Assembly (NCBI RefSeq): GCF_947166265.1
Contig: NZ_CAMVDO010000008.1
Location: forward strand, 62,001-126,000
DNA: 64,000 nt
Direction: 5' to 3'
Source: an uncultured Fibrobacter sp.
GTDB lineage: Bacteria; Fibrobacterota; Fibrobacteria; Fibrobacterales; Fibrobacteraceae
In this document: positions 8,382 to 23,827 of the stretch, one piece after another
Layout: every line of letters begins with the position of its first letter
How positions within the stretch are numbered: the first letter of the stretch is position 1
Notes under the pieces: generated by a model
What the model saw: only the letters and a program-made list of their open reading frames with translations
Databases searched by the model: none
Told to the model about the DNA's origin: nothing
Translations under genes and position numbers: made by a program

Positions 8382-9560
8382 ATGAGCGATAAGACAGCAA
8401 GAATCGGGTGGATTGACGAATTCAAGGGATTCGTGTTATTGCTCGTCTGTTTATTCCACATCGAACAAAGTTTCGCAAACGTCAACATGGGAATGTTGCA
8501 TCTAAGCGCACTCCGCATGTCGGCATTTTTCTTTATTTCGGGAATGCTTTTCAGCACACGCCGTTTTCCGAACTTCAAAGATTACCTGATTCACAAGACC
8601 CGCGTCTTACTCGTCCCCTACATTCTACTTTCGTTGCAGTTTTTGGCTTTAGACCCGGTACTCTATCACTTCGATTGGTTTCCTCGAGCGCCGCGCATGA
8701 CCGTGATGAACATCTGTCCCGAAATCACAACTGTATGGGATTATATTTACTGGAATTTGGCGAAAATATTCGTGGCAGGAAAATCATCGATTGGCTCGGG
8801 ACCGCTTTGGTTCGTGTTCACGCTGTATAGCGTGAGTCTGATGTTTTACGGGTTGCAAAAAGTCGCGGGCCGTATAACGGCGCCGCGGATTGCGAACACA
8901 ATCATAGCCATTGCAAGTCTTGCGGGCGGTTGGCTCCTGTACAAGAACCACATTCGTTTGCCACTCGGGATTGAGCGAGACCTGACGGTGTTATTCTTCT
9001 TCGCCTGCGGGTGGCTTTGCAAGGGAGTATTAAAAGATCCCCGCCTTCGCGGGGATGACAGAAAAAAAGCGGGGATGTCAAAAAAGAAAGCGAAACTAAC
9101 TGGAAAAAAAAACGTAATCCTCGCGGTAGCGACCATTGTCGCTTTCGTCACCTACGCATTTATCGAAGTTCCGGATCCGTATTTCAGTATTATGAACAAC
9201 GACCTCGGAAAAAGTTTCATCGGATTTCTTGCAAGTTCTATTTTCGGAATCACGGGACTCATCGCGACATTCATGCTTGCAGATAAATTACCAAGCCTAG
9301 CCCCCATCCGAATCGTCAAGGGAATTCTGCAGAACATTTCCCGAAATGCACTCGTGATTCTCGCCGTTCACTGGTGGATTCTACTGGTGCTACGCATTAT
9401 TTTCAAGAAAGAGATGGACCGCCCCGGCATCGCCTACCTTTCAGCACTTATTGTCACCGCAGGCGTGATAGTCGCCATTCCCATTTTCAGATGCAAACTC
9501 TACAAGTTGCTCGGGAAAGAAAAAGTAAGCGTTCGCGAAAGCCTGCGCATTCGCGGTTAA
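8382..9560 (+). CDS. acyltransferase family 3 membrane protein with in-frame repeat insertion
   Basis: A 392-residue polytopic inner-membrane protein of the acyltransferase-3 (OafA/YrhL/NodX) type, which moves acyl groups, often acetyl, onto sugars of surface polysaccharides. It starts with RIGWIDEFKGFVLLLVCLFHIEQSF; the His after the first helix is the family's conserved active-site residue. About ten hydrophobic helices follow, including AFFFISGMLFS and PLWFVFTLYS. Around residues 218-245 a highly basic hydrophilic loop is encoded by a palindromic genome repeat (KDPRLRGDDRKKAGMSKKKAK), so the element has inserted in frame between helices. GAAAAGAA precedes the ATG. The stop overlaps that of the convergent patatin gene (shared TTAA). 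Acceptor and acyl donor are unknown. Confidence 0.85.
   Translation: MSDKTARIGWIDEFKGFVLLLVCLFHIEQSFANVNMGMLHLSALRMSAFFFISGMLFSTRRFPNFKDYLIHKTRVLLVPYILLSLQFLALDPVLYHFDWFPRAPRMTVMNICPEITTVWDYIYWNLAKIFVAGKSSIGSGPLWFVFTLYSVSLMFYGLQKVAGRITAPRIANTIIAIASLAGGWLLYKNHIRLPLGIERDLTVLFFFACGWLCKGVLKDPRLRGDDRKKAGMSKKKAKLTGKKNVILAVATIVAFVTYAFIEVPDPYFSIMNNDLGKSFIGFLASSIFGITGLIATFMLADKLPSLAPIRIVKGILQNISRNALVILAVHWWILLVLRIIFKKEMDRPGIAYLSALIVTAGVIVAIPIFRCKLYKLLGKEKVSVRESLRIRG
9036..9080 (+). repeat. GGATGACA-family palindrome inside a coding sequence
   Basis: GATCCCCGCCTTCGCGGGGATGACA at 9036-9060 (stem CCCCGC/GCGGGG), then a partial second copy GCGGGGATGTCA ending at 9080. It is translated in frame within the acyltransferase-3 gene as a basic loop containing DPRLRGDD. 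Confidence 0.9.
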
Positions 9561-10402
9561 ATTTCGAGGAAGGCCTTTAAGTCGTCCATGCGCTTTTTAG
9601 CCATTTCAACACCATGCTCGTAAGATTCATTCATCTTTTCCATATTGGTATCAAACTGGTCGCACAAATCAATCAACGGACGGATCAAGAGCAAACGCCC
9701 CTCTTTTTCGAGCTGTTCAATCCGCACAAACATCTTGTCGTAGCGTTTGAGGCGAATCATAAGGGCTCGGAAAAGATCCGGATACTTGCGCTTGTACATC
9801 GGATTTAAAATTGCACGGTACTTGCGGAAATCCGTCACGGCCTCGCCCGGGTAATGCGTCGAAATCGCAACCACCTTGTCGCAGCCTTTTTCAAAAGCGC
9901 GTTCAAAAGGAATCGGCACCGTAATGCAACCGTCGGCGTAATGTTTCCCCTCGAGGGAGGCCATCGGGAAAATCATCGGCAAGGCGCAACTTGCACTAAT
10001 CAAGTCCAGCAGACGTTTCTTGTCGTTCTTTTCGCTCTTGAATTCGGCACGGCCCGTCTCGCAACAGGTAAGGCCAATTTCACATTCGATATTGGAATTG
10101 CGATACGCCTCAAAATCCAGCGGCATTACACCATCGGCGGCAAGGTAATTCAGCGCATGGAATTCCTTCTGAATTCCGATAAACTTACTCGCCCATTTTT
10201 TGCCTTTCTGGAGACGCGTCGGAAGCACGATAAAACGTAAACGTCCCTGCTGACGCGTAATGAAATTCACGGCAGCGTGTGCACCGGCAGATACACCCGC
10301 CACGTAATTGAAATCAATTCCTTCGTCAAGCCAGGTATCAATCACCCCTGCACTGAACATCGTCTGGCGAGAGCCACCTTCAAGTACAAGTCCCGTTTTC
10401 AC
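9557..10402 (-). CDS. patatin-like phospholipase family protein
   Basis: A 281-residue patatin-fold hydrolase with the Ser-Asp dyad. The oxyanion region is LEGGSRQ (residues 8-13), the nucleophile elbow is GVSAG (Ser38) and the Asp sits in DG of YADGCITVPIP. No signal peptide, so cytosolic or peripheral on the inner membrane, like RssA/YjjU-type proteins that hydrolyse lipid acyl esters. The start is GTG at 10402, overlapping the PlsC-like gene's stop as GTGA, so the pair is translationally coupled. An acyltransferase and a lipase in one operon suggests phospholipid acyl remodelling, but that is inference. It ends tail to tail with the acyltransferase-3 gene. Confidence 0.88.
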   Translation of the reverse strand: MKTGLVLEGGSRQTMFSAGVIDTWLDEGIDFNYVAGVSAGAHAAVNFITRQQGRLRFIVLPTRLQKGKKWASKFIGIQKEFHALNYLAADGVMPLDFEAYRNSNIECEIGLTCCETGRAEFKSEKNDKKRLLDLISASCALPMIFPMASLEGKHYADGCITVPIPFERAFEKGCDKVVAISTHYPGEAVTDFRKYRAILNPMYKRKYPDLFRALMIRLKRYDKMFVRIEQLEKEGRLLLIRPLIDLCDQFDTNMEKMNESYEHGVEMAKKRMDDLKAFLEI

Positions 10403-11142
10403 GCATTCCCTCCATTGTCATTCCCGACCTGATCGGGAATTTCCTGTTCAGCTGGAGTTTCAGCCGCGATAGGCAACACCGGCGCATTCTCTACGCCAAG
10501 GGCCTTCTGCTTAAGCGTCCAAATTTTCTGCCTAAAGTATTCGCTACGTTCCGCCAAGTGCTTCGAAGAAGGAATTCCCTTCACGCGTTCAATCTTTTCG
10601 GGTTCAGCAACAACCACCTGCGTGCGGTGACCGAACTTGTAGATTCCATCGAGGCCTACAGCCAAAACCGGCGCACCCGTGCTACGAGCAAGGAACGCAA
10701 AGCCCGTCTTGAATTCGTTCAGCAAGCCGTCATAGCGGCACTTGCCTTCAGGGAAAATAATCACCGAGTTTCCCTTTTCCAGCTCACGCTTTGCAATCAA
10801 GGCCCACTCGGTATCCATATTGAAACGGTCGCAAGGAATTACGCACTTCGCACGAGTCAAGGCCCAACTGAAATGCGGATCTTCAACCTGGTCCTTCGCC
10901 ACCACAATACTATGATTGTAGAAAAACACCGCAAGCATCATAATCGGGTCGAGCATGCTCGTATGGTTTGCAATAATCACCGAAGGCGTCTTAAGATGGG
11001 CGGACTTGACCGTCTCTCCCGTAAACACGACCTTCGGGCGGAACCACACAAACATAAAGACGCGCACCGTGTATATCACCACGACAACGAACGCGCACAT
11101 CACAAGTTCGACAAGCGGATTTTTCTTTTTTACGTCAGGCAT
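10399..11142 (-). CDS. 1-acyl-sn-glycerol-3-phosphate acyltransferase-like protein
   Basis: A 247-residue PlsC-family acyltransferase of the membrane surface. It has an N-terminal hydrophobic helix (about 10-34), the catalytic HTSMLD (His60, Asp65; HX4D), the substrate-binding VIIFPEGKCR (about 129-138) and a later hydrophobic beta segment GAPVLAVGLDG. Family role: acyl transfer from acyl-ACP or acyl-CoA to lysophosphatidate or a related glycerolipid. The C-terminus IPDQVGNDNGG is encoded by a palindromic genome repeat (10416-10440), so the last residues look like a late addition. It follows the FabZ gene after a repeat-bearing 98-nt gap and is coupled to the patatin gene. Confidence 0.9.
   Translation of the reverse strand: MPDVKKKNPLVELVMCAFVVVVIYTVRVFMFVWFRPKVVFTGETVKSAHLKTPSVIIANHTSMLDPIMMLAVFFYNHSIVVAKDQVEDPHFSWALTRAKCVIPCDRFNMDTEWALIAKRELEKGNSVIIFPEGKCRYDGLLNEFKTGFAFLARSTGAPVLAVGLDGIYKFGHRTQVVVAEPEKIERVKGIPSSKHLAERSEYFRQKIWTLKQKALGVENAPVLPIAAETPAEQEIPDQVGNDNGGNA
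10416..10440 (-). repeat. GGATGACA-family palindrome in the plsC-like C-terminus
   Basis: On the minus strand TTCCCGATCAGGTCGGGAATGACA; stem CCCGA/TCGGG. It encodes the last residues of the acyltransferase. It is the only clear copy in this window pointing left. Confidence 0.75.
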
Positions 11143-11168
11143 TACTAATCAACGTCTTTGCGAGAGAA

Positions 11169-11234
11169 GATTCCCGCCTTCGCGGGAATGACATTTGCTG
11201 AGTACGTCATTGCGAGCGAAAGCGAAGCAATCCA
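11169..11234 (+). repeat. two adjacent palindromic repeats of different families
   Basis: GATTCCCGCCTTCGCGGGAATGACA at 11169-11193 belongs to the GGATGACA family. CGTCATTGCGAGCGAAAGCGAAGCAATCCA at 11205-11234 is a second palindrome of a type I know from many other bacterial genomes. They fill the gap between the FabZ and PlsC-like genes. Confidence 0.8.
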
Positions 11235-11240
11235 CAATAC

Positions 11241-11687
11241 TTACTTTCCGAGGCTTTCCTTCGGAATGCTCGTAAAGGTGAGCGCACCCTTCGCGTGAAC
11301 GTTGCCGTTCACTTTCACGATGCAGTCAAAGCCGACCAATACGCCGCCTTCCTTCGTCTTCTTCACGGAAATTTCAAGCTGGTCGCCCGGAATCACAGGC
11401 TTCACGAACTTGAATCCGTCAATCTTCAAAAGCACATAGAGATTCTTTTCCAAATCTTCGGCTGGCTTTTCGATGACGAGCGAGCAGAGCTGGGCGCAGC
11501 TTTCCACAATGAGCACACCCGGCATAATCGGGGTTCCCGGGAAATGTCCCGTAAAATACGGTTCATTCACGCTCACATTCTTGAGGCCCACAGCCGATTC
11601 ATTCGGCACCAGTTCCTTGACCTTTTCGATCATCTGGAACGGCGGACGCTGCGCAATCTTTTCGCTAATTTCGTAAATGTTCATCAT
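11241..11687 (-). CDS. fabZ: 3-hydroxyacyl-[acyl-carrier-protein] dehydratase (FabZ-like)
   Basis: A 148-residue hot-dog-fold dehydratase. The signature is GHFPGTPIMPGVLIVE with catalytic His48 and Glu62, and the N-terminal RPPFQMIEKV lines up with FabZ. It removes water from 3-hydroxyacyl-ACP in the elongation cycle. Two adjacent ATGs exist; the outer one overlaps the FabG stop as ATGA. It is the fourth gene of an ACP, double-ketosynthase, FabG, FabZ set, so it probably serves that set, whether as the general fatty-acid dehydratase or a pathway-specific one. Confidence 0.92.
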   Translation of the reverse strand: MMNIYEISEKIAQRPPFQMIEKVKELVPNESAVGLKNVSVNEPYFTGHFPGTPIMPGVLIVESCAQLCSLVIEKPAEDLEKNLYVLLKIDGFKFVKPVIPGDQLEISVKKTKEGGVLVGFDCIVKVNGNVHAKGALTFTSIPKESLGK

Positions 11688-12415
11688 AGAGAAAGTCCTC
11701 CGTCGAGCACGAACACCTGGCCTGTCACATAGGCGAACTGGTCAGAAGCAAGTGCAGAAACGATGTTCGCCACTTCGTCGGCAGAGCCAAAACGCTTGAG
11801 CGGAATCTTTTCGAGATAGCCCTTGCGGGTTTCTTCGGGAATGGCCTCGATCATTTCAGTTGCGATAAAACCCGGAGCGACAGCATTCACGCGGATACCG
11901 AAGCCGCCGAGTTCCTTCGCGAGCGTCTGCGTCAGAGAATTCACGGCGCCCTTCGTGGCACTGTAAACGGCCTGGCCCGCGAGAGCGAACTTCGAAGACA
12001 CGGAACTCATGTTGATAATCACGCCGGACTTCTGCTTGTACATCTTCACGGCGACCTGCTGGGCGCAATAGAAATAGCCCTTCACGTTCAGGTCGAAGCA
12101 CTTGTCGAGAGTTGCCGGGTTCATCATCATCAGGTATTCGTCGCGGACAATGCCCGCGTTGTTCACGAGCACGTCGATGCGGCCATACGCCTTGAACACT
12201 TCGCGCACCATCACCTTGACTTCGTCGAGCTTAGAAACGTCGGCCTTGTAAATCATGCCGTCGCCACCTTCAGCCTTGATCTGGTCGAGCGTCGCGTTTG
12301 CCGCCTCGTCGGAACTGGAGTAGTTCACCACGACCGTATAACCGTCACGTGCGAGTCGCAGGGCGCAAGCCTTGCCGATTCCCTTAGATGCACCTGTCAC
12401 CAAAGCAACTTTCAT
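11684..12415 (-). CDS. fabG: 3-oxoacyl-[acyl-carrier-protein] reductase
   Basis: A 243-residue short-chain dehydrogenase/reductase of FabG type: NADPH-binding TGASKGIG (7-14), NNAG (85-88), catalytic Ser138, Tyr151 and Lys155 (YSATK), and the FabG-typical end VTGQVFVLDGGLSL. It reduces 3-oxoacyl-ACP to the 3-hydroxy form. The start at 12415 is chosen because GAAGGAG lies just upstream and the longer frame (to 12478) would overlap the ketosynthase gene. It follows that gene by 19 nt and overlaps fabZ by 4 nt. Confidence 0.95.
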   Translation of the reverse strand: MKVALVTGASKGIGKACALRLARDGYTVVVNYSSSDEAANATLDQIKAEGGDGMIYKADVSKLDEVKVMVREVFKAYGRIDVLVNNAGIVRDEYLMMMNPATLDKCFDLNVKGYFYCAQQVAVKMYKQKSGVIINMSSVSSKFALAGQAVYSATKGAVNSLTQTLAKELGGFGIRVNAVAPGFIATEMIEAIPEETRKGYLEKIPLKRFGSADEVANIVSALASDQFAYVTGQVFVLDGGLSL

Positions 12416-12434
12416 CTTCAATTCTCCTTCTAAA

Positions 12435-14831
12435 CTATTTTCCGAAAACAACGGCGCTGTAGGAGCCACCCGCCGCAAACGAAATCACCAAAACTTTCTT
12501 GAGGTTTGCAGCGTCAGCCTTCTTGGATGCCACGGAACCGTCGGCCGCGACAAAGTAGGCATTGTCGCCTGCAAGTTCGCCACTCAACAGGAGAGCAGCT
12601 TCAGCAGCGGCCAAAGCGGCAGACCCCGCACGGCCTTCGCCCGTGCGTTCCTTGACTTCAAATAGCGGCATCGAGGCGAGCTTTTCGCCAAACACGCGCT
12701 TGAGTGCGCCCTTCTCGATATCGTCGATTCGCTTGCAACCGTTCGCAAAGCCGCAAACCGCATCAATTTCGCTAGCGGAAATTCCAGCATCAGCGAGAGC
12801 ATCGGCAATCGCCTTGTCCAGCGCCTCGTCGGAGCCGACCAGCTTGCCGAACTTCACGTTCTTGCGACCATGACCAAAACCGAGCGCGTAGCAGTAGACC
12901 TTTGCACCACGGGCCTTGGCGTAGCCTTCTTCTTCGAGCATAATGGACACAGAGCCGTCACCCACCACGCAACCTTCGTTGCCTGCGAAAGGCGCCACCA
13001 CGTCCGTTGCGGCCACGCCGAGCTTCTGGGCAAATTCGGTAATGATCGGCAGGTTTTCGTCAGTACCGGTTGCCATCATCGCCTGTTCCTGGCCGTCGTG
13101 AATCACGTTCATCGAGTATCCGATGCTGTCGAGGCCAGAAAGCGGCCCCGTCGTAATCGTGACGCCGTAACCCTTAATGCCGGAGCAAATGGAAAGGTAG
13201 CCGCCCGCCGCATTGTAAACCGTATGCGGGAACTTGAAAGCAGATCCCTGGGAATTACCTTCGCGGGCAATCAGTTCTTCAAAATCGTAAGTGGCACCGA
13301 GGCCGCCTTCGCTGGTACCCACGATAATGCCGATATCCTTCGCGTTATCGTCGGTCACCTGGAGGTTTGCGTCCTGCAAAGCGCGCATCCCCGATACCGT
13401 CTGGAGCTGTCCCAGGTTGTCGAGCTTGCGGTAGAACGCCATCTTGATGCCGAGTTCCTTATAGTCGTCGAGCGCAATCGTCGAATGTACCGAAGCCGAT
13501 TCAGGCTTCTTGTCGGCCTTTACCGCTTCGAGGTAGGCAGCCTTGCTGTTACCGAGCGGAGAGACAATTCCAAGACCTGTCACGGCAATCTTCTTTGCCT
13601 TGGCGGACTGGGCGGAAACTTCGCCGGGGACCTTCGAGAAAACAATCGCCGCATTCGTTCCGCCGAACGCCACGTTGTTGCTCAACACGCACTTGAGTTC
13701 CTTATGGCGGGCATGGTTCTGCACGAAGTCGAGACTCCCTACCTTTTCCTTGAGGGCAGCGGACTGTTCGTCGCTGTAAGGGAACGTCGGGAGCACCGTA
13801 TCGGTCGTCAGGGCCTTGATGCTGAACACGGCTTCGATAGCACCGGCGGCACCGAGACAGTGGCCGGTCATCACCTTGGTCGAGCTCACGCTGACATTTG
13901 CATTGTCTTCGCCAAAGAAATTCTTGAACGCCGTAATTTCGGCATTGTCGTTCTTGCCCGTACCCGTACCGTGAGCATTCACGTAACCGATATCGGACTT
14001 GTCGATGCCGGAATTCTTGACGGCGCGGTTAATCGCTTCCATCAGGCAAACGCCATCTTCACGCGGGGCGGTAATGTGGTTCGCGTCGCTCGTAACGCCC
14101 GATCCGAGCACTTCGCAGTACTGTTTTGCGGAGCGCTTCTGGGCATGTTCGTAAGATTCCACAATGACGATACCCGCACCTTCGCCAAGCGTAATGCCGT
14201 TGCAACGGTTGAACGGAGAGCATCCGTTTTCGTCGAGGGCATGAAGCGAAAGGAAGCCGGAATACGGAACTGCAGCAAAGGAGTCGGCACCGCCCGCAAT
14301 CACCACGTCGGCCTTGCCCGCACGAATCAAGTCGCAAGCAACCGCAATCGAAATCGTTCCTGCCGCACAGGCGTTCGCCACGTTCGTCACGATACCGCCA
14401 GCACCACAGGATTCTGCCACCTGCGAAGCAATCGCCGCAATAGGCATCTTTGCAATTTCAGAAGCGTCGCGGCCATGCTGGTGGTACTGCTCAATCGAAA
14501 GGACACCGCCCACGCAGCTACCGATGACCACGCTCACGCGTTGGTCGTCACCAAAATTCGAAAGCCCCGCATCGGCCAAGGCCTCATTCGCGGCCTTGAT
14601 GCAGAGCTTAGAGACGCGGTCCTTTTCTTCGGGAGCGTCCAAGTTGTCGAGGGTATCGCACTTGACTTCGGCAGCCAAGTCCGCATAGCAGTTCACGGTA
14701 TCGACCGAAGTCGTCTTATGGATGCCCGAAACAGATTCCAGGGCACTTTTCCAAGTTTCTTCGACATTGTTACCGACGGCGCAAATAACACCCAAGCCAG
14801 TAACTACACAGCGACGTTCGTCAGGGGTCAT
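12435..14831 (-). CDS. fused double beta-ketoacyl synthase: active KS plus degenerate KS (CLF-like)
   Basis: A 798-residue protein with two thiolase-fold ketosynthase domains in tandem. Domain 1 (about 1-415) is a full FabF-type condensing enzyme: Cys155 in NACAAG, His287 in AHGTGTGKND, Lys319 and His324 in MTGHCLGAAGA. Domain 2 (about 425-798) begins KIAVTGLGIVSPLG and keeps the fold's NAAGGYLSI and AAGGSYSAVVFG ends, but the nucleophile region reads TTGPLSGLDS with no Cys, the HGTGT motif is FANGCKRID and the TGHxxGAAG motif is RTGEGRAGSAA. It is therefore a chain-length-factor-like, non-condensing partner fused to its KS. The ATG at 14831 has GGAG 4-8 nt upstream. It lies between the ACP and FabG genes. 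Fused KS-CLF is known in PUFA synthases; in a discrete-enzyme system it is unusual. Confidence 0.88.
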   Translation of the reverse strand: MTPDERRCVVTGLGVICAVGNNVEETWKSALESVSGIHKTTSVDTVNCYADLAAEVKCDTLDNLDAPEEKDRVSKLCIKAANEALADAGLSNFGDDQRVSVVIGSCVGGVLSIEQYHQHGRDASEIAKMPIAAIASQVAESCGAGGIVTNVANACAAGTISIAVACDLIRAGKADVVIAGGADSFAAVPYSGFLSLHALDENGCSPFNRCNGITLGEGAGIVIVESYEHAQKRSAKQYCEVLGSGVTSDANHITAPREDGVCLMEAINRAVKNSGIDKSDIGYVNAHGTGTGKNDNAEITAFKNFFGEDNANVSVSSTKVMTGHCLGAAGAIEAVFSIKALTTDTVLPTFPYSDEQSAALKEKVGSLDFVQNHARHKELKCVLSNNVAFGGTNAAIVFSKVPGEVSAQSAKAKKIAVTGLGIVSPLGNSKAAYLEAVKADKKPESASVHSTIALDDYKELGIKMAFYRKLDNLGQLQTVSGMRALQDANLQVTDDNAKDIGIIVGTSEGGLGATYDFEELIAREGNSQGSAFKFPHTVYNAAGGYLSICSGIKGYGVTITTGPLSGLDSIGYSMNVIHDGQEQAMMATGTDENLPIITEFAQKLGVAATDVVAPFAGNEGCVVGDGSVSIMLEEEGYAKARGAKVYCYALGFGHGRKNVKFGKLVGSDEALDKAIADALADAGISASEIDAVCGFANGCKRIDDIEKGALKRVFGEKLASMPLFEVKERTGEGRAGSAALAAAEAALLLSGELAGDNAYFVAADGSVASKKADAANLKKVLVISFAAGGSYSAVVFGK

Positions 14832-14854
14832 ACTACTCCAAAAATCTACAAGGA

Positions 14855-14903
14855 GATCCCCGCCTTGCTTCGACAAAGCTCAGCACAGGTCGCGGGGATG
14901 ACA
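14855..14903 (+). repeat. GGATGACA-family element with an extended loop
   Basis: GATCCCCGCC at the left and CGCGGGGATGACA at the right enclose a second inverted segment TGCTTCGACAAAGCTCAGCACAGG. It lies between the ACP and double-KS genes, so it would be transcribed in that operon's mRNA. Confidence 0.75.
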
Positions 14904-14938
14904 AGTTTAATTGTGCCGCAGGGGCAAAGCAACAAAAA

Positions 14939-15184
14939 TTAGGCCTTGTGGGCTTCGATATAGGCGGCGATCGTATCGATGCTCTGGAAGTTTTCCTTGG
15001 CAACACCGGTCATGGACACGCCGAAGTTGGAATCCACGAAAGAGATAATTTCGAGGGAATCCACGGAATCAAGGCCAATTTCTTCACCAAAAAGCGGAGT
15101 ATCGTACTGGAGCACGTCGCCATCGACGCCGAGGTCGGACATAAAGAAGGACTTGAGTTTGCTTTTCATTTCTTCAGAAGACAT
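14939..15184 (-). CDS. acyl carrier protein
   Basis: An 81-residue acidic acyl carrier protein. The phosphopantetheine Ser40 sits in GLDSVDSLEI, at the start of helix II, matching the ACP motif DSL. It would carry growing acyl chains for the double KS, FabG and FabZ encoded next in the operon. GAGGT precedes the ATG. The upstream gap (15185-15294) has TTGACA at 15241-15246 on the minus strand and a weak TATCTT at 15215-15220, with a 20-nt spacer longer than ideal. Whether this is the general ACP or pathway-specific cannot be told without the rest of the genome. Confidence 0.92.
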   Translation of the reverse strand: MSSEEMKSKLKSFFMSDLGVDGDVLQYDTPLFGEEIGLDSVDSLEIISFVDSNFGVSMTGVAKENFQSIDTIAAYIEAHKA

Positions 15185-16437: not shown

Positions 16438-19400
16438 CTATTCCACGTTCACGCGGAGTGTACGGCGGTTAACCCGCACAACGTAACTGCCCGGTCGAGA
16501 GAGTTCGATTCGACGAGTTCCATTCGTCACGACATCCTGTGCCACAAGGACCCCCTGAACATCGTAGACCATCACCTTCGAACCGATTTTCGCTCCCGAG
16601 ATTTCAAGGGCACGGCCACTCGTTGCCACGGTAAAGCCCACAGACCTAGATTCCGGTAAGCCGGTAGCGGCATCCACGAACGTTGCCGTATAAACACCGT
16701 CCTTCAGCTGCCACTTATCGAAGGTATAGGTCACCTGACCCTTCTTGTAGTTTTCAGGAATGACTCCCGCCAAGGCGCGGTCAATCGTCTTTTCGGCAGA
16801 GCCAGAATAAATCACGACGATTTCACCCGTTTCTCCACGAGCATCATCGTAGCGGATTGTCTTCTGGAACAGCGGGTACACATCCTTGTCGCCGTAATCG
16901 GTGGCAAGCATCGCCTTGTAGCGCTCACCCAGGCCATTCTTCTTCTGGTACCATCCCTTGAATTCCCAAGTGGAATCACCCTTGATGTAACCCGACGGAA
17001 GCATTGTCACCTTCCCATAGGTATAGCCGTTGAACTCAGCCGTTAAATCTCCTTCTGCAGGCAGGTGGAAGATTACGTCAAACACTCGGGCAATCCTTGC
17101 GAAAGTCGGTTCGTAGACATCTGTCGAGTCATTCCGCACAAACTTTTCGAATTCGTAGGTATATGTGCTATCCGCATCCTTCACCGGCAACACACGAATG
17201 GAATCGCCACCTTGCTTCGGAAGGGCTTCCTCGATTTTCGATTCAATAATCGAATCCGTATCGGTTATCCGGATCACCACGTAGACCGTATCCGTTTCCT
17301 TGTCACCATACTTCACTATAATCTTTACAGATTTTGCAACACCTTCAAATTCTGGAACATGCCAGCCTTCGGGTTGTTTTTCCTTCCAATGAAGGACGAA
17401 CGTAGAATCTTCGGTTTCAGCCTTCGACGGAACAACCTTTCCGGACTGTTCCAGGAATTCGCCAATCTTTTGATCCAGTTTTTCCTGCGTATTCACATCG
17501 ACAACAAAGAACATTGTCGATATCGTATCCGCAGCACCATCGCCATACTTAATGACATATTCACGGCTTCTTTCGGCAGCGGTAAATCCCGGTTCGTAGT
17601 ACGAAGTCTTTTCGTTCTTGTGCCAGGTACTATTAAACGTGAACGTCTGTTCTTCCGTCGACTTCTTGGTCGGAGTCGGAATAGCCGGAACATGCGACTT
17701 GATAGCGGCATTGATTTTCTGGTTCACCTTGGCATCGTTATCGGTCACATGAATTTCCACATGAATCGTATCGGTAGCCTTTTTACCATACTTCACCACA
17801 ATGGTATCTTTCTTGACAATGCCCACAATGACAGGTTCATAGCGAGTAGAATCCTCTGCACTCTGTTTCCAGCCATCAAGAACGTAGGTGGAATCGTCAT
17901 CTTCAGTAACCTTGGGCGGCAGCGGGATTTTCGGCTTATGCTTTGCAAGCGTATCGGAAATGACCTTGCTTATGTCATCCTCGGAATCCAGCGTTTTCAC
18001 CTTCACCCAAAGGGTATCACTTGGACCACCGCCATAGGCCACCACGATATCCTTGATTTTTGCAACCGGAGTAAATTCAGGCACATAATGCTTGTCGGAA
18101 TCCTTTTTCCAGTTCGAGAAAACGTAGCTGGAATCCTTGTGCGGATTCGTCTTTTCCGGCTGGAGAGGCGGATCGAAGCTTGCCATGGTCGAATCAATCT
18201 TTCTTGCGATTTCTTCTTCGCTATCCGTCACCTTAATCACCACGTCGACCGATTTGCCCTTTGCGTAGGCAACGACAACCGTATCATCCTTGACTTCCGA
18301 CGAGAATATAGGATTGTAACAAGTCTTGCAAGCCGGATCTTTCTCCCATTCCTCGAAAGTATAGACGGAATCCTGATGCGGGTCCGTAGGCACAGGAACA
18401 ATTTTCGGTTCCTTACTTGCCAGGGTCGAATCGATTTTCCTTGTACGTTCATCTTCGTCATCGGTCCTATCAACGATTACCTTGACGGAATCTTCGGGGC
18501 CCACCACAGCGACAATCGTATCTTTCTTGACGGTCATGATAAAGTCCGCACGATAGACCTCATCATTTTCCGGATCCATTACCCAAGTTCTAAACTCATA
18601 GTCATAATTCGCATTGCGAGGATACGGCTCAGGAGTCACACCTTCTACCTCCGCTTGCGCCTGAATCTTTTCTATCACCAGGTTTTCATCGTCGGTCACA
18701 AGGACATCGACCCAGAAATATTTGGTCTTACTTGCGTAAATAACCTTGAGTTCCTTCTCCTTCACTTCGCTCTTAAACAGAGGCACGTAAGCACCGTCCG
18801 TATCCTTTTCCCACTTCTGTGCGAACGTATACGTAGAATCCCAAGTTTCGGTCTTAGTCGGAAGCGGAATTCTCGGATTGTGGTTATTCAAACCATTGAC
18901 AATCGCCTTGTTCAAAAGCGAATCGTTACGCGTAACCGGCACATTGACCTTCAAATGAATCGTATCGTTTGGAGTTTCACCATATCTCACAACAATTTCA
19001 GTCTGCTTGACTAAGGATTCGAACTCAGGTTCATACCAATCCTTGTCTTCATTGTAATGCCACTTGTTACGGTAAGTATTGAAGGCATACGTAGAATCTT
19101 CGCTGTCGCCCCTGCGCGGCAAAACTTCACCAAGCTCATCGCTCAGCGAATCAAGCGAATTTTTCACCTGCTTTCGAAGACATAGCGGAGACTTTTCCAG
19201 ATCTTCTGTTTCGGGGCAATTGACAAGGACGACCTGAACGGTATCCGTTTCGCCATCACCATACTTGGCAGCAACGACAGGATACCCCGTCAACTTACCA
19301 TTGACAGTCTTGACATTCTCATACGATGCCGTGACATCTTCGTCATTAGAATTTTTAATCACATACGAGAGAATCTCATTTTCAGAAGAGCCTCTTCCCG

Positions 19401-22400
19401 TCACAGAGCCTTCAATCACGACCTGAATGTAGTCGCCCTCCGCAAGGACGTCCGGAGTGAAGGTAAATCCCGGATCCGTAAGGACAGCGTCCTTACCGTT
19501 GCCCTGGGCAACGGAATTCGCCGTGATCGTCAGAGTTTTCTTAATCGGATTCACGACAAGGCCACCGTCAATCACGTTGAACTTGACCTGTTCAAAATCC
19601 GTCAAGCCTTTGTCCTCAAACTGAGTCACATCAAGTCCCATCGGATACGTTCCCGCCGACGTCGCCTCCACAACGCTATTTCCGTTGAACACAAAGTCCG
19701 TCAGCGAATAGCCCTCATGGTCTATAGAAACATCGTAACCCGACACACTGTGTTTGACACCATCATAGTCAACAGTCTGTTGGTGACCTCTAATGGTTAC
19801 CGTAACAATCTTTGCATCGGCAACTTCGATATAGCCGTCACTTACATCAAACTCTACATCAAAATTACCATCTACATTTTCAAGTTTCGAAGCAAGATTC
19901 ATAAATTTTTTGCCTACAGTTTCTAGGCTCACCGAGGCCGACATACCTTTTTTCAGCTTTACATTCGACACATCGTAAAGAGGATCGGATGCACTCACAA
20001 CCGTATAGCCTTCAGACACATACACGTGGGAACCCTCTTCGACCTTGACACTCGTTTTCTTACCTTCAACCACAACCGTGACCGGCCGCTTTTCAATTAT
20101 CAGCTTTGCAGTTGTTTTTGCTGTATCCGTATAATTCGGGTTAGTCGCCCTTACATTGATAGTGTAGGTTCCAGCATCCGTCCGAGTGAGGTCGCCCAAA
20201 TTCTTAGTCCAATTTTTTTCATCATCCTTGACATCATCCTTGAACTGATACTCACAATTTGTTGAACCAGTCTTTGCTTCCGGTGTTTCACATTCGTGCG
20301 TATTCGCATGGGATTCTCCATCGTACTCAACGGTTTCATTTTTAAGTGTAACCGTAAACGACTTTGCCGGTGTAATAGTCAACTTGCCCGGAGTGGTCGT
20401 TATCGCGTAATCCATCGTAACGTCATTTTCTTCAGCATCCTTAATAACGGCAGATTCTGCCGGAGTAATCACGCCATCGTACTCACCCACATCGGTGCCA
20501 GCGGCACTATAAACGACATCATCATGCGTATGACCAGCAACCAAGCCCTTGCCCGAAACAGTCATATCAGTCAAGGCAATTTCTTCGCCCGTATAAGTCA
20601 AAGTTTGCGTTTTACCCGTAAACGAAAGTGGTCTCGGATTGATCTTGATGATTCCATAATTCGGTTCAATCTTGAAGGAATCCGTTACAATTACGCCATC
20701 ACTGTTCTTGATGACCAACTGGTCACAAGTTGCTTCGACCTCGCCTTCAGCCACGTGAGTTACAGAAACAGTAGATGCAGCCTCAGCTGTATAATCAACA
20801 CCTTTTGGGAAAGTTACAGTAATTTCCGACGGATCCACAACAAGCGGAGTGCCATCGAAAACCTTAGATTTATTCTTAGTCGTCACCGTGACCGTAATCT
20901 GTTCCCACATGGCATAGAATGCAGTATCGCCATAAGGCGCATTCGGTTTGAAGCTAGTTACCGTCTTGGGACAATTCTCTGTTACATCCGTAGTGCACCA
21001 GCCCTTAAATATATAGCCATCCTTGGTTGGTGTTTTGAACTTAATTTCTGCAGAATCAAGATTATAAGATAAAACCGGCGTTTCAGAGAATTTTCCGCCA
21101 TTCAAAACATAATCAATTGTATAGTCTTGGAGCTTCCAATGCGGATAAAGATCCAGGTTAGCCTTGTCCGAATACACAGCATCAAAGTCATAATCTATAT
21201 CGCCATTCAATGTTTTAGACCAACCATCCTGTACACGACCAATGGCCGTAAAGGTTTCGTTTCGCAAATTTATAGGCGTATCATAATCTTTTGCATCTTT
21301 AACAATCGCTTCTTTAGCAAATTCATCTGGGGTATAAGTGATTATATACGTAGTCCTTGCCCAATTTGCATATAACGTTAGTTTTTCGGCCATATCATTG
21401 ATATGTGAAATCGGAGTATCAAAGGTTTCGTCAAGGAACCAGCCTTCAAAGTCATAGCCTTCTCTAGACGGGCGCAAAAGACTCAAATCTATAGTTGTAT
21501 CAACATTATAGGTTTTCGGATAGTCGGCAGGATTATAAGTAGCGTCCTTCAAATTTTCATAAAGAATAGCATAGATATTTCGAGTCCACTTCGCATAAAC
21601 TTTGCTATTCTTTGTGATTTGCACCTTGTCAAATTCAAATTTCTTCGTACAAGCAAGGTCTTCATACCATCCACCAAAAGTATATCCTTTTTCTACGAGT
21701 TCACCGGGGTCAGTAGCCAATTCATTATCAAGAATATGCTGTGCCTCAGGTGCAACACCATGGCCCTGCACATCAAACGAAACGGTGAAAGTCGGAGCTA
21801 TTGTCCACGACGCAGAAAAAGATGACTCCTTTGTTGCATTACCGATTGTCTGTACCGGATTTCCTTGAGAATCCTTCCAACCGGCAAAGTAATACTTAAT
21901 TCCATTTTCCATATACTCCGTAGGAAGGTCAAAGTCAATCGTAATAGGTTCACCTTCTTCTATCCAGATTTCTTTTTGCTGCGTAGCCGGTTCGCCAGGG
22001 AAAAATCCCGGCTTGGAACTGAACGTTATTTTATAAGCATCTTTCCAATAGGCATAAACCGTGGTTGGCTTATATACTTTGCCAAGATTTCCCGGTTCTC
22101 CATTTTTACTTAAAGACCAATTTTTCCCAAACACATTTGAATCTGATGCGGGAATAGGATCATCGATTCCCTGTGAAGTTATTGGATCTTCTAGATACAA
22201 TTCCTTACTTCTTGTTGTAGCTCCGCCAGAAAACGAGCCTTCATTAGCATCAAAAGTAATCACATAAAGAGTCCTTCCCTTTGAATCCTTTGTCACACCT
22301 TGGTTTGTTATGTTTGTGTGTTTACTCCAAATGTTAGTCTTTGCACCCGTACAACTACCATTGTTCCATGTTCCCTTATTGAGCAAACAGACATACTCTT

Positions 22401-23607
22401 CTTGGTTCACGACCGAATTGCCGACACCGGTATTATCCCCTTCAACAGCGCCCCCTTTTTCAACAGAACCAACGCCACTAGCTGCAGCATCACTATCATA
22501 ATAACCTTCGGTAATGTTAGCTTTACTACTCACCAAACCGATAAGGCCTCCCGTGGCACCACTAGTGCCCGTATTTTGCAGCAGGCTTCCGTCGTATACG
22601 CTCGATTCAAACTTAACCGTTCCAGATTTGACGCGTCCCACAAGACCACCGACAAAAGCTCTATCACCGGCAACCTTAATTGTAGCGACACTCAAGGTAT
22701 TCTTGATTGTTCCGCCAAAAGCTGTACCCACTATACCACCAACAGCCTGCCCCTTTTTATAGGTATCTACAGAACCCGACACATAACAGCCCTCAATCGT
22801 ACCAGAAGGCATCCAGCCTACGATAGCGCCTGTACTCACAAAGCTGTTGTCACTGATTAAATAGTCTTGCACCTGACCATGAGCCTGAATATCTACGTTA
22901 TCCAAAACAACATTTTTTACCGTCCCCGAAATCGTTCCAAACATGCCGACATTTTGTCCATAAATATAAGCCTTACTTTCAAGGTATTCGCTATGAACAG
23001 AAAGATTAGAAATGGTGACCCCGTTACCGTCAAAAATACCCGCGTACCTTATGGCACCCGTACCTGCAGCAATCGGGATAAACGGTTTTCCTCCCATGTC
23101 CAGGTAGGGAGCCGACACAAAGGCATTAAAAGCAACCCCAACCTCTTTACCAGAATTCGATTTCAAAATCGCTAAAGTCACCCTAATGGCATCTTCTTTG
23201 GACACAGAAAAAATGTTTTTCGCAATGGCTTGGGCCCGAGTTATTTTTGCAACACTGTCTTCAATGGCCGAGATTTCCTCCATACCGTCAATATACAGGT
23301 TCGCAATGGTCTTGCTCATTTCAACGGAAACAGTATCTTTGTAAGTGTTTAGCCATGTCCGCAAATCTTTCATTAAGAAAGTTTCCGCCTGTTGCATAGC
23401 CGCATACGTATTCACCGTATCCGAAAACCACGCCAAGTTTTTTTCATTCTCAATGACAAAATAGTGCTTGCCCTTAATTACCGTATCTTTTTCCACTTTT
23501 TGGGTGGAGGTGCCATCCCAGGCAGCCATAGCAGAACCAATCCCCAGCGCACACACGAGCAGGGATACCAAGCGGACGAACGAAAACTTCTGAATAGCCT
23601 TATCCAT
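16438..23607 (-). CDS. giant secreted repeat protein (GLUG, InlB_B, MBG and a novel ~80-aa repeat)
   Basis: A 2389-residue extracellular protein. The ATG at 23607 has AAAGGA upstream; a signal peptide ends at SAMAAW (about residue 30). In order: a helical stretch to about 170; GLUG-like beta-helix units (about 185-360; IFDGNGVTISNL, VGGIVG, VGGLVGR); InlB/Listeria-Bacteroides beta-grasp repeats (about 450-900; GYTFGGWYEDLACT, VYAKW); MBG-like Ig-type modules (about 905-1445; KVFDGTPL, ITPAKSFTVTL, DAGTYTINV); then about nine units of 78-85 residues with the pattern YG-x-TDTI-x-V-x-TD ... IPxP ... DSTYTFxxW ... YxPxF (about 1446-2300). It ends with a C-terminal domain of about 55 residues (VMVYDVQGVLVAQ ... 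SYVVRVNRR) shared with other secreted proteins here, likely a secretion sorting signal. No catalytic domain seen; probably a stalk-like adhesin. Confidence 0.85.
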   Translation of the reverse strand: MDKAIQKFSFVRLVSLLVCALGIGSAMAAWDGTSTQKVEKDTVIKGKHYFVIENEKNLAWFSDTVNTYAAMQQAETFLMKDLRTWLNTYKDTVSVEMSKTIANLYIDGMEEISAIEDSVAKITRAQAIAKNIFSVSKEDAIRVTLAILKSNSGKEVGVAFNAFVSAPYLDMGGKPFIPIAAGTGAIRYAGIFDGNGVTISNLSVHSEYLESKAYIYGQNVGMFGTISGTVKNVVLDNVDIQAHGQVQDYLISDNSFVSTGAIVGWMPSGTIEGCYVSGSVDTYKKGQAVGGIVGTAFGGTIKNTLSVATIKVAGDRAFVGGLVGRVKSGTVKFESSVYDGSLLQNTGTSGATGGLIGLVSSKANITEGYYDSDAAASGVGSVEKGGAVEGDNTGVGNSVVNQEEYVCLLNKGTWNNGSCTGAKTNIWSKHTNITNQGVTKDSKGRTLYVITFDANEGSFSGGATTRSKELYLEDPITSQGIDDPIPASDSNVFGKNWSLSKNGEPGNLGKVYKPTTVYAYWKDAYKITFSSKPGFFPGEPATQQKEIWIEEGEPITIDFDLPTEYMENGIKYYFAGWKDSQGNPVQTIGNATKESSFSASWTIAPTFTVSFDVQGHGVAPEAQHILDNELATDPGELVEKGYTFGGWYEDLACTKKFEFDKVQITKNSKVYAKWTRNIYAILYENLKDATYNPADYPKTYNVDTTIDLSLLRPSREGYDFEGWFLDETFDTPISHINDMAEKLTLYANWARTTYIITYTPDEFAKEAIVKDAKDYDTPINLRNETFTAIGRVQDGWSKTLNGDIDYDFDAVYSDKANLDLYPHWKLQDYTIDYVLNGGKFSETPVLSYNLDSAEIKFKTPTKDGYIFKGWCTTDVTENCPKTVTSFKPNAPYGDTAFYAMWEQITVTVTTKNKSKVFDGTPLVVDPSEITVTFPKGVDYTAEAASTVSVTHVAEGEVEATCDQLVIKNSDGVIVTDSFKIEPNYGIIKINPRPLSFTGKTQTLTYTGEEIALTDMTVSGKGLVAGHTHDDVVYSAAGTDVGEYDGVITPAESAVIKDAEENDVTMDYAITTTPGKLTITPAKSFTVTLKNETVEYDGESHANTHECETPEAKTGSTNCEYQFKDDVKDDEKNWTKNLGDLTRTDAGTYTINVRATNPNYTDTAKTTAKLIIEKRPVTVVVEGKKTSVKVEEGSHVYVSEGYTVVSASDPLYDVSNVKLKKGMSASVSLETVGKKFMNLASKLENVDGNFDVEFDVSDGYIEVADAKIVTVTIRGHQQTVDYDGVKHSVSGYDVSIDHEGYSLTDFVFNGNSVVEATSAGTYPMGLDVTQFEDKGLTDFEQVKFNVIDGGLVVNPIKKTLTITANSVAQGNGKDAVLTDPGFTFTPDVLAEGDYIQVVIEGSVTGRGSSENEILSYVIKNSNDEDVTASYENVKTVNGKLTGYPVVAAKYGDGETDTVQVVLVNCPETEDLEKSPLCLRKQVKNSLDSLSDELGEVLPRRGDSEDSTYAFNTYRNKWHYNEDKDWYEPEFESLVKQTEIVVRYGETPNDTIHLKVNVPVTRNDSLLNKAIVNGLNNHNPRIPLPTKTETWDSTYTFAQKWEKDTDGAYVPLFKSEVKEKELKVIYASKTKYFWVDVLVTDDENLVIEKIQAQAEVEGVTPEPYPRNANYDYEFRTWVMDPENDEVYRADFIMTVKKDTIVAVVGPEDSVKVIVDRTDDEDERTRKIDSTLASKEPKIVPVPTDPHQDSVYTFEEWEKDPACKTCYNPIFSSEVKDDTVVVAYAKGKSVDVVIKVTDSEEEIARKIDSTMASFDPPLQPEKTNPHKDSSYVFSNWKKDSDKHYVPEFTPVAKIKDIVVAYGGGPSDTLWVKVKTLDSEDDISKVISDTLAKHKPKIPLPPKVTEDDDSTYVLDGWKQSAEDSTRYEPVIVGIVKKDTIVVKYGKKATDTIHVEIHVTDNDAKVNQKINAAIKSHVPAIPTPTKKSTEEQTFTFNSTWHKNEKTSYYEPGFTAAERSREYVIKYGDGAADTISTMFFVVDVNTQEKLDQKIGEFLEQSGKVVPSKAETEDSTFVLHWKEKQPEGWHVPEFEGVAKSVKIIVKYGDKETDTVYVVIRITDTDSIIESKIEEALPKQGGDSIRVLPVKDADSTYTYEFEKFVRNDSTDVYEPTFARIARVFDVIFHLPAEGDLTAEFNGYTYGKVTMLPSGYIKGDSTWEFKGWYQKKNGLGERYKAMLATDYGDKDVYPLFQKTIRYDDARGETGEIVVIYSGSAEKTIDRALAGVIPENYKKGQVTYTFDKWQLKDGVYTATFVDAATGLPESRSVGFTVATSGRALEISGAKIGSKVMVYDVQGVLVAQDVVTNGTRRIELSRPGSYVVRVNRRTLRVNVE

Positions 23608-23827
23608 AAGCAATCCTTTGCCGAGAAATCAATTTCTGGACGGCAAAAAACCCAGAAACCGCCTCGGCTTCTTTTTCTCTCTTAAAAATAATTAAAAAAT
23701 TTTTACATGGGTAAGTTTTTTTTATATATTTGGTAAAAAAGGCCTTCACAAAGAAAATTCGTCCATTTCGTTATTTTTTTCTTATTTTACATTATAGAAT
23801 CCGCTTTATGGGAGTCCACGCAAGAAT
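23608..23827. promoter_or_regulatory. divergent promoter region
   Basis: A 220-nt AT-rich gap between the leftward giant protein gene and the rightward barrel gene. For the rightward gene TACATTATAGAATCC at about 23786-23800 looks like a -10 region. No inverted repeat stands out. Confidence 0.35.

Follow-up and report, generated by a model that had tools for sequence, protein, structure and literature searches.

A fused ketosynthase-chain length factor operon in Fibrobacter and other gut anaerobes, and the flavoprotein that accompanies it

What acyl chain is made by an operon that combines a fused ketosynthase (KS) and chain length factor (CLF) with its own acyl carrier protein (ACP), ketoreductase (KR) and 3-hydroxyacyl dehydratase (DH), and is such an operon the fatty acid synthase of its host, a spare copy of it, or a system of another kind? 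The question is raised by a 64,000-nucleotide stretch of DNA from an uncultured Fibrobacter sp. (assembly GCF_947166265.1, contig NZ_CAMVDO010000008.1, positions 62,001 to 126,000; hereafter the window), where these four genes are followed by genes for a PlsC-like acyltransferase and a patatin-like phospholipase. All six were found on the minus strand with Pfam support for each, as listed in a first-pass annotation of this DNA. Polyketide, polyene and polyunsaturated fatty acid (PUFA) synthesis are the known settings of chain-length-factor ketosynthases. The reading that we prefer, and to which we give a probability of about one half, is that of an acyl-chain synthase of the dissociated (type II) kind that would work independently of FabH and feed membrane lipid, with a partner flavoprotein as its probable enoyl reductase. 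The genes are listed below in the direction of transcription, followed by an accessory gene.

14939-15184, minus strand: ACP, 81 aa, GLDS site with Ser40 by count; Pfam PP-binding 29.8 bits (cut-off 20.8), score under all NCBIfam ACP cut-offs listed
12435-14831, minus strand: fused KS-CLF, 798 aa from the ATG at 14831; KS at residues 1-402, CLF at residues 411-798; two ketoacyl-synthase stretches in Pfam
11684-12415, minus strand: KR, FabG-like short-chain dehydrogenase/reductase (SDR), 243 aa; NF009466 FabG subfamily 225.4 (cut-off 222), TIGR01830 271 bits (below the cut-off of 297.75), Pfam adh_short; 62-100% identity to the KRs of related loci
11241-11687, minus strand: DH, FabZ type, 148 aa; NF000582 FabZ equivalog 135.1 (cut-off 113), TIGR01750 132.1 (below the cut-off of 155.15), FabA-like family supported by Pfam
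10399-11142, minus strand: PlsC-like acyltransferase, 247 aa; Pfam Acyltransferase 74.1 bits, TIGR00530 65.3 (below the cut-off of 102.95)
9557-10402, minus strand: patatin-like phospholipase with DUF6363, 281 aa; Pfam Patatin 58.6 and DUF6363 42.8 bits
15295-16359, minus strand: accessory Omp85-superfamily outer-membrane barrel protein, 354 aa; Pfam Omp85 26.4, slightly above the cut-off of 24

Residues and fold of the fused protein

We aligned 45 homologues of the fusion, window included, picked from the 89 that were read and drawn from Fibrobacter, Treponema, Clostridia and Mollicutes. The KS half is intact, with its catalytic residues exactly at the positions first given for them: Cys155 and His287 are found in 45/45 sequences, and Lys319 and His324 in 44/45 (one unread letter). 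The CLF half had been described as a second KS fold without the Cys and both His, which holds in all 45: the Cys position is taken by Pro (20, including the window), Ala (19) or another residue (6; Thr, Val, Met or Phe) and never by Cys, the first His is replaced by Asn (39) or Asp (6) and the second by Glu (45/45), while the Lys is retained in 42/45. The mean share of the commonest residue is 0.67 in the CLF half versus 0.78 in the KS half, and the CLF half holds long invariant stretches, such as KMAFYRKLD. Such stretches argue against the idea that the operon is a second ordinary type II fatty acid synthase (FAS II) in which a decayed KS has become joined to the working one, with no special product. 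A recent tandem duplication of one KS gene was also considered and rejected, the two halves being about 22-26% identical and falling in separate clades.

An AlphaFold2 model of the whole KS-CLF (pLDDT 87.6, pTM 0.92) was compared with known structures using Foldseek. Among the 50 matches listed, the top one was the KS-CLF of the PUFA synthase PfaC (6riw; TMq 0.79, 17% identity), which was also the only one to span both halves, the others being single FabF- or FabB-type KS chains. The second structural comparison gave KASII (1e5m, Z 52.5) as its best match and the ishigamide KS (6kxd) at Z 51.9, with matches that cover the KS half (residues 1-402); because the KS half fills this list, it carries little information on the CLF half.

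PfaC thus shares with the fusion an active KS and a dead KS fold in one chain, and is its best whole-length structural match. PUFA synthases pair their KS-CLF with an FMN enoyl reductase, PfaD, and the search of this genome yielded just two FabA-family genes, the DH of the operon included. These points favour a discrete type II counterpart of PUFA synthase, in which enoyl reduction in some cycles only would give a partly unsaturated chain made without oxygen. Unlike PfaC, however, the fusion is a stand-alone 798-aa protein with discrete ACP, KR and DH and no PfaA-type megasynthase (the PfaA model TIGR02813 gives 70.3 bits, its cut-off being 1010.1); moreover, tandem ACPs are absent and the DH is of FabZ type, with weak FabA scores. 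We consider this counterpart improbable.

The ishigamide polyketide synthase (PKS) Iga11/Iga12 (6kxd, 6kxf) resembles the operon in its discrete KS-CLF, KR, DH and ACP and in the fold of its KS (Z 51.9 over 376 aligned residues, root-mean-square deviation 1.9), a score tied with that of FabF. It differs in that its KS and CLF are separate chains, and its product is a polyene. To our knowledge, the ishigamide PKS has no flavoprotein partner. The operon could likewise be a highly reducing type II PKS that makes an all-trans polyene acyl chain with no enoyl reduction, the PlsC-like enzyme putting the chain on lipid and a flavoprotein serving in tailoring or redox supply. A KS-CLF, KR and DH with their own ACP correspond to the make-up of highly reducing type II PKSs in an excerpt of PMC7949117, and a search of the window-set proteins with NCBIfam and Pfam profiles found no known enoyl reductase gene, which also suits a polyene. 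Conserved polyene tailoring genes were not seen in the loci read, and further points on the other side come from the flavoprotein and from the clostridial operons described below. Taken together, we regard a polyene as a real but unlikely outcome.

Distribution of the operon and the fatty acid synthase of the host

A genome collection was scanned with the CLF half, and of the 143 related loci the best 80 were analysed, comprising 36 from Fibrobacter, 18 from spirochaetes and 26 from Clostridia, Mollicutes and others. The whole fused frame (784-804 aa) was present in 78/80, the two others (L118 and L119) being cut by contig ends, and one open frame of this size was seen in 88 loci read, i.e. 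KS and CLF are not separate subunits. ACP was found in 77/80 loci and KR and DH in 78/80 each, in constant order where present, several of the gaps being contig ends. The order ACP-(KS-CLF)-KR-DH is common to Fibrobacter, gut Treponema, Clostridia and Mollicutes, with ACP upstream of KS-CLF in 36/36 Fibrobacter loci. The occurrence of KS-CLF is far beyond chance, and the spread of the gene set across phyla as a unit is a further argument against a second ordinary FAS II copy. A fused KS-CLF outside PUFA megasynthases had been called unusual in the first-pass annotation; it is instead standard in this gut lineage, and deep Fibrobacterota have another form. Most carrier records are metagenome-assembled, with Fibrobacter intestinalis ATCC 43854 and Eubacterium sp. 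MSJ-21 as named strains without that mark.

In one tree of KS and CLF rows, Fibrobacter was nested within spirochaetes for the KS half (supports 98/87 and 100/99) as well as for the CLF half (98/93 and 100/98). Clostridia and Mollicutes fell outside, and in the CLF part a single Treponema row (L125) lay apart from the remaining spirochaetes. This nesting indicates that Fibrobacter acquired the core operon horizontally, the donor probably being a gut spirochaete or Firmicutes lineage. Among 167 Fibrobacterota genomes, the fusion was detected in 58 (57 whole, and one, G120, as two contig pieces), all from the genus of the window and one other. An acyltransferase-3 gene, cysS and a beta-lactamase-fold gene adjoin it in no more than a subset of Fibrobacter genomes, which shows that its location varies.

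Relatives in deep Fibrobacterota were seen in two arrangements. In five loci (L042, L044, L045, L048 and L049), KS and CLF are a pair of separate genes with about 29-31% identity to the fusion and with varying neighbours that include KR, DH, ACP, radical-SAM-like and phytoene-dehydrogenase-like genes. Two others (L187:3646-7422 and L188:634-4395) have frames of 1253-1258 aa with an N-terminus that looks B12-binding radical SAM-like by eye and a KS-CLF pair as the remainder, each adjoining a second fused KS-CLF of 770-774 aa in a ladderane-like setting. Ladderane-type clusters of anammox bacteria and Desulfotalea have FabF paralogues without catalytic residues alongside normal ones (PMC2649909, in part), and the split relatives resemble these clusters in lying beside B12-radical-SAM and CrtI-like genes (by eye). 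The window set differs in having no radical SAM or phytoene-dehydrogenase-like gene, and a CrtI-like gene was found in 2/80 loci and 0/36 Fibrobacter loci. A ladderane cluster was rejected for the window, while the split relatives in deep Fibrobacterota do show that context.

The host genome (3.77 Mb, 96.8% complete) was then searched for housekeeping counterparts. PF00109 gave six matches, of which two were the halves of KS-CLF and the others lay on C58 and C15 (both fabF-like) and on C16 (two). Other ACP matches were on C9 (acpP) and C16, a FabG-like gene on C9 adjoins the ACP there with RNase III nearby, and one further FabA-family gene on C3 stands beside lpxC (RNase III and lpxC read by eye). 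The tree built from 77 KS and CLF rows, which comprised no Iga or other actinomycete rows, has a FabF clade of 13 rows (support 99/94) that excludes the fused KS half. The latter is monophyletic (19 rows, 100/100) and forms a moderately supported group of 32 rows (80/85) together with the KS of deep Fibrobacterota that are split or linked to radical SAM; the two C16 rows are on very long branches and their placement is unsure. The KS half resembles housekeeping FabF in its 38-41% identity to the B. subtilis enzyme and in passing the FabF subfamily model NF005589; it differs in its separate clade, its fused dead partner and a TIGR03150 score of 479.5, 14 bits below the cut-off of 493.75. The first-pass annotation had proposed to compare both KS domains with FabF and had left room for the locus being the primary FAS II of this genome; this was rejected, since separate fabF-like, acpP, fabG-like and FabA/FabZ-family genes exist and the KS half lies outside the FabF clade. 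A second copy of ordinary FAS II would agree with the good scores of KR, DH and KS halves with FAS II models, and is set against the position of the KS half in the tree as well as the evidence above; we consider it very unlikely. An aryl polyene cluster was rejected too, as the operon has no aryl starter, tailoring or export genes. The same genome has an aryl-polyene-like cluster, identified by eye, on C16 (L060:2973-20000), with two ACPs, KS, DH, KR, KS, an acyltransferase and a large membrane protein.

The partner flavoprotein and hosts with a single detected ketosynthase locus

Outside Fibrobacter, the operon is often joined by a further gene. A flavodoxin-like protein of about 245-250 aa is encoded in 36 of the 44 non-Fibrobacter loci, in most cases following DH or FabD-AccD-AccA, and a search of carriers found it in 21/21 genomes, including that of the window:

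C21:20604-21311: flavoprotein of the window's genome

We searched the 167 Fibrobacterota genomes with thresholds of our own choosing (E-value of at most 1e-40 for the fusion and at most 1e-30 for the flavoprotein). Both were found in 58 genomes, the fusion alone in 0, the flavoprotein alone in 2 (G075, 81% complete, and G137, 74% complete) and neither in 107, i.e. the flavoprotein is present in 58/58 genomes with the fusion versus 2/109 without, in counts without a species-phylogeny correction, whose Fisher value ignores shared ancestry and is not taken as a probability. The corresponding numbers for the 80 genomes of the window's genus are 52, 0, 2 and 26. The two genes lie less than 10 kb apart in 10/58 genomes (G066, G073, G074, G090, G097, G101, G104, G107, G108 and G115) and are on different contigs or distant in the other carriers (in the single-contig G144 the distance is about 1.47 Mb); because they are usually unlinked in Fibrobacterota, linkage does not explain the pairing. 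This near-perfect pairing of a candidate enoyl-reductase flavoprotein with the fusion is a new observation.

The flavoprotein has FMN_red and Flavodoxin_2 matches in Pfam, and a CX2CX2CX7C motif is conserved in 27/27 aligned copies. The compact motif CX2CX2CX5-7C characterises iron-sulfur flavoprotein (Isf) in an excerpt of PMC3164229, and the partner protein has it, with a last spacing of 7. Its nearest PDB sequence is 7d38 (profile E-value 1.8e-11), the flavone reductase FLR, of a class of ene-reductases (PMC7862272, in part). FLR of Flavonifractor plautii (7d38-7d3b) has the cysteine-rich region in common with the partner flavoprotein; it differs in a wider spacing of the last Cys, and its substrates are flavones, not acyl-ACP. 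On this likeness and on the pairing, the flavoprotein is probably the enoyl reductase of the system. A polyene had been among the products first proposed, and it remains one option, although only one of several, because all carrier genomes checked have an ene-reductase-related flavoprotein alongside the fusion.

We then searched 16 host genomes besides that of the window with PF00109. Only the KS-CLF halves were matched in 6/16, namely G168 and G169 (Anaeroplasma), G171, G174 and G179 (Clostridiales) and G180 (Acholeplasmatales), all metagenome-assembled with completeness unstated; G178 was left aside as unclear, its second PF00109 match being a fragment of 110 aa from a different contig. FabH was not detected above the cut-off in 13/17 genomes, window's included, and the six lone-KS genomes had no FabH match save one in G174. 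Nor was FabV (PF12242) matched in the lone-KS genomes, and their FabK (PF03060) matches were all partial and weak, the best scoring 35.6 bits. For FabI, 30 of 35 PF13561 matches (window genome's included) were obtained as loci, and the open SDR frames read in 23 of them lack what we take to be the FabI motif, so that FabI is unlikely to be the enoyl reductase of the lone-KS genomes. FabV is present in Fibrobacter and Treponema carriers, and the window's genome, with no FabH match (PF08545), has it. Six carriers of these two genera (G000, G175, G176, G177, G181 and G182) have no PF08545 match, yet have other KS genes and FabV. The operon had also been likened to a specialised chain factory. That description may suit Fibrobacter and may not fit all carriers, since in several of them the operon is the only KS locus found.

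Lipid neighbours and the proposed pathway

The genes that surround the core differ between lineages (several names were given by eye; FabD, PlsX, the biotin carrier, ACP2 and TetR were checked). PlsC-like and patatin genes are each present in 32/36 Fibrobacter loci and in 12/18 and 10/18 spirochaete loci, respectively, whereas the other 26 loci have FabD (15), AccD (14), PlsX (12) and PlsC-like (8) genes. A common clostridial order is ACP, KS-CLF, KR, DH, FabD, AccD, AccA, flavoprotein, PlsX, and one mollicute order is ACP, KS-CLF, KR, DH, flavoprotein, ACP2, AccB, AccC, AccD, AccA, FabD, BirA. In Fibrobacter, 12/36 loci have a FabD-like gene upstream on the opposite strand (36-44% identity, one cut) and 18 of the 36 an upstream carboxyltransferase-like gene. 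A PlsC-like or PlsX gene is thus found in 64/80 loci, in line with the earlier proposal that the KS-CLF belongs to a type II gene set dedicated to an acyl chain, the destination of which is plausibly lipid. The PlsX and acetyl-CoA carboxylase genes of the lone-KS clostridial operons suit a bulk membrane chain and count against a polyene. In one Treponema copy of the operon, the PlsC-like acyltransferase (L100:11870-12904) carries a fused LRAT domain (Pfam 102.7 bits), and the gene after it is of the phytoene-desaturase family.

At the locus itself, the KR and DH genes and the PlsC-like and patatin genes overlap by 4 bases, 19 bases separate KS-CLF from KR, and gaps of about 100 bases precede the KS-CLF, PlsC-like and ACP genes. 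Since a scan for promoters and terminators returned about as many sites as in shuffled sequence, the operon limits were based on spacing and conservation. The Omp85 barrel gene lies 110 bases upstream of ACP and has counterparts in 15/36 Fibrobacter loci and 0/44 other loci. Immediately upstream of it is a giant predicted, repeat-rich protein of 2391 aa (window positions 16438-23613), and at the other end an acyltransferase-3 family membrane protein (8382-9560) faces the patatin gene end to end.

From the gene content, order, residues, predicted fold, phylogeny and co-occurrence described above, we infer how the chain may be primed, reduced and delivered to lipid. Malonyl groups supplied by acetyl-CoA carboxylase and FabD would be loaded onto the dedicated ACP and condensed by the KS half. 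The CLF half, itself catalytically dead, would complete the dimer and determine the length of the chain; it may also aid priming through decarboxylation of malonyl-ACP. FabH-free priming is suggested by the absence of FabH and by the known start of KS-CLF systems. Acetate priming is common in such systems (PMC7949117, in part). The KR would reduce and the FabZ-type DH dehydrate the intermediate, after which the iron-sulfur flavoprotein (on C21 here, adjoining the operon in most non-Fibrobacter carriers) would probably reduce the enoyl group in some or all cycles. The finished chain would pass to lipid via the PlsC-like enzyme here and via PlsX in Clostridia, and the patatin would probably edit or release it. 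The fusion would hold KS and CLF at 1:1 and travel between genomes as a single gene, and Fibrobacter would run the acquired operon alongside its own FAS. The product could be saturated, partly unsaturated or polyene, sequence being compatible with each.

Several observations weigh against a FabH-independent synthase with a flavoprotein enoyl reductase. The KS half passes the FabF subfamily model NF005589 (466.4, cut-off 387), and the co-occurrence is uncorrected for species phylogeny. KS-CLF pairs of known function mostly yield polyketides or polyenes, which favours an absence of enoyl reduction. The 7d38 match covers only about 77 residues of the flavoprotein, and its fold search ranks NAD(P)H:quinone oxidoreductases and azoreductases first (Z 14-16), with FLR/7d38 not among the 50 fold matches listed; given that ranking, enoyl reduction is a lead and no finding. 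Each lone-KS genome also has 3-8 DegV/FakB-family matches, so uptake of external fatty acids is possible and the operon may serve another purpose.

The individual enzymes of the operon are all of known families. The novelty lies in a mobile gut lipid-chain system built on the fused KS-CLF, which is the sole KS found in some hosts and has a constant flavoprotein partner; no description of the operon was found in the literature, as judged from titles and abstract openings outside subscription journals. More tentatively, at somewhat less than even odds, the carriers may share a hitherto undescribed, mobile type II lipid-chain synthase of gut anaerobes, composed of a self-priming KS-CLF, KR, DH and an FLR-type iron-sulfur flavoprotein enoyl reductase and independent of FabH, FabI, FabK and FabV. 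Some Clostridia and wall-less Mollicutes would have no other fatty-acid-type synthase, and in Fibrobacter and Treponema it would serve as a dedicated second one. The near-perfect pairing makes the question of the missing reductase directly testable. If the reading is true, these bacteria would make lipid chains without recourse to FabH or the known enoyl reductases, all standard antibiotic targets, and an unrecognised lipid class would be added to rumen and gut membranes.

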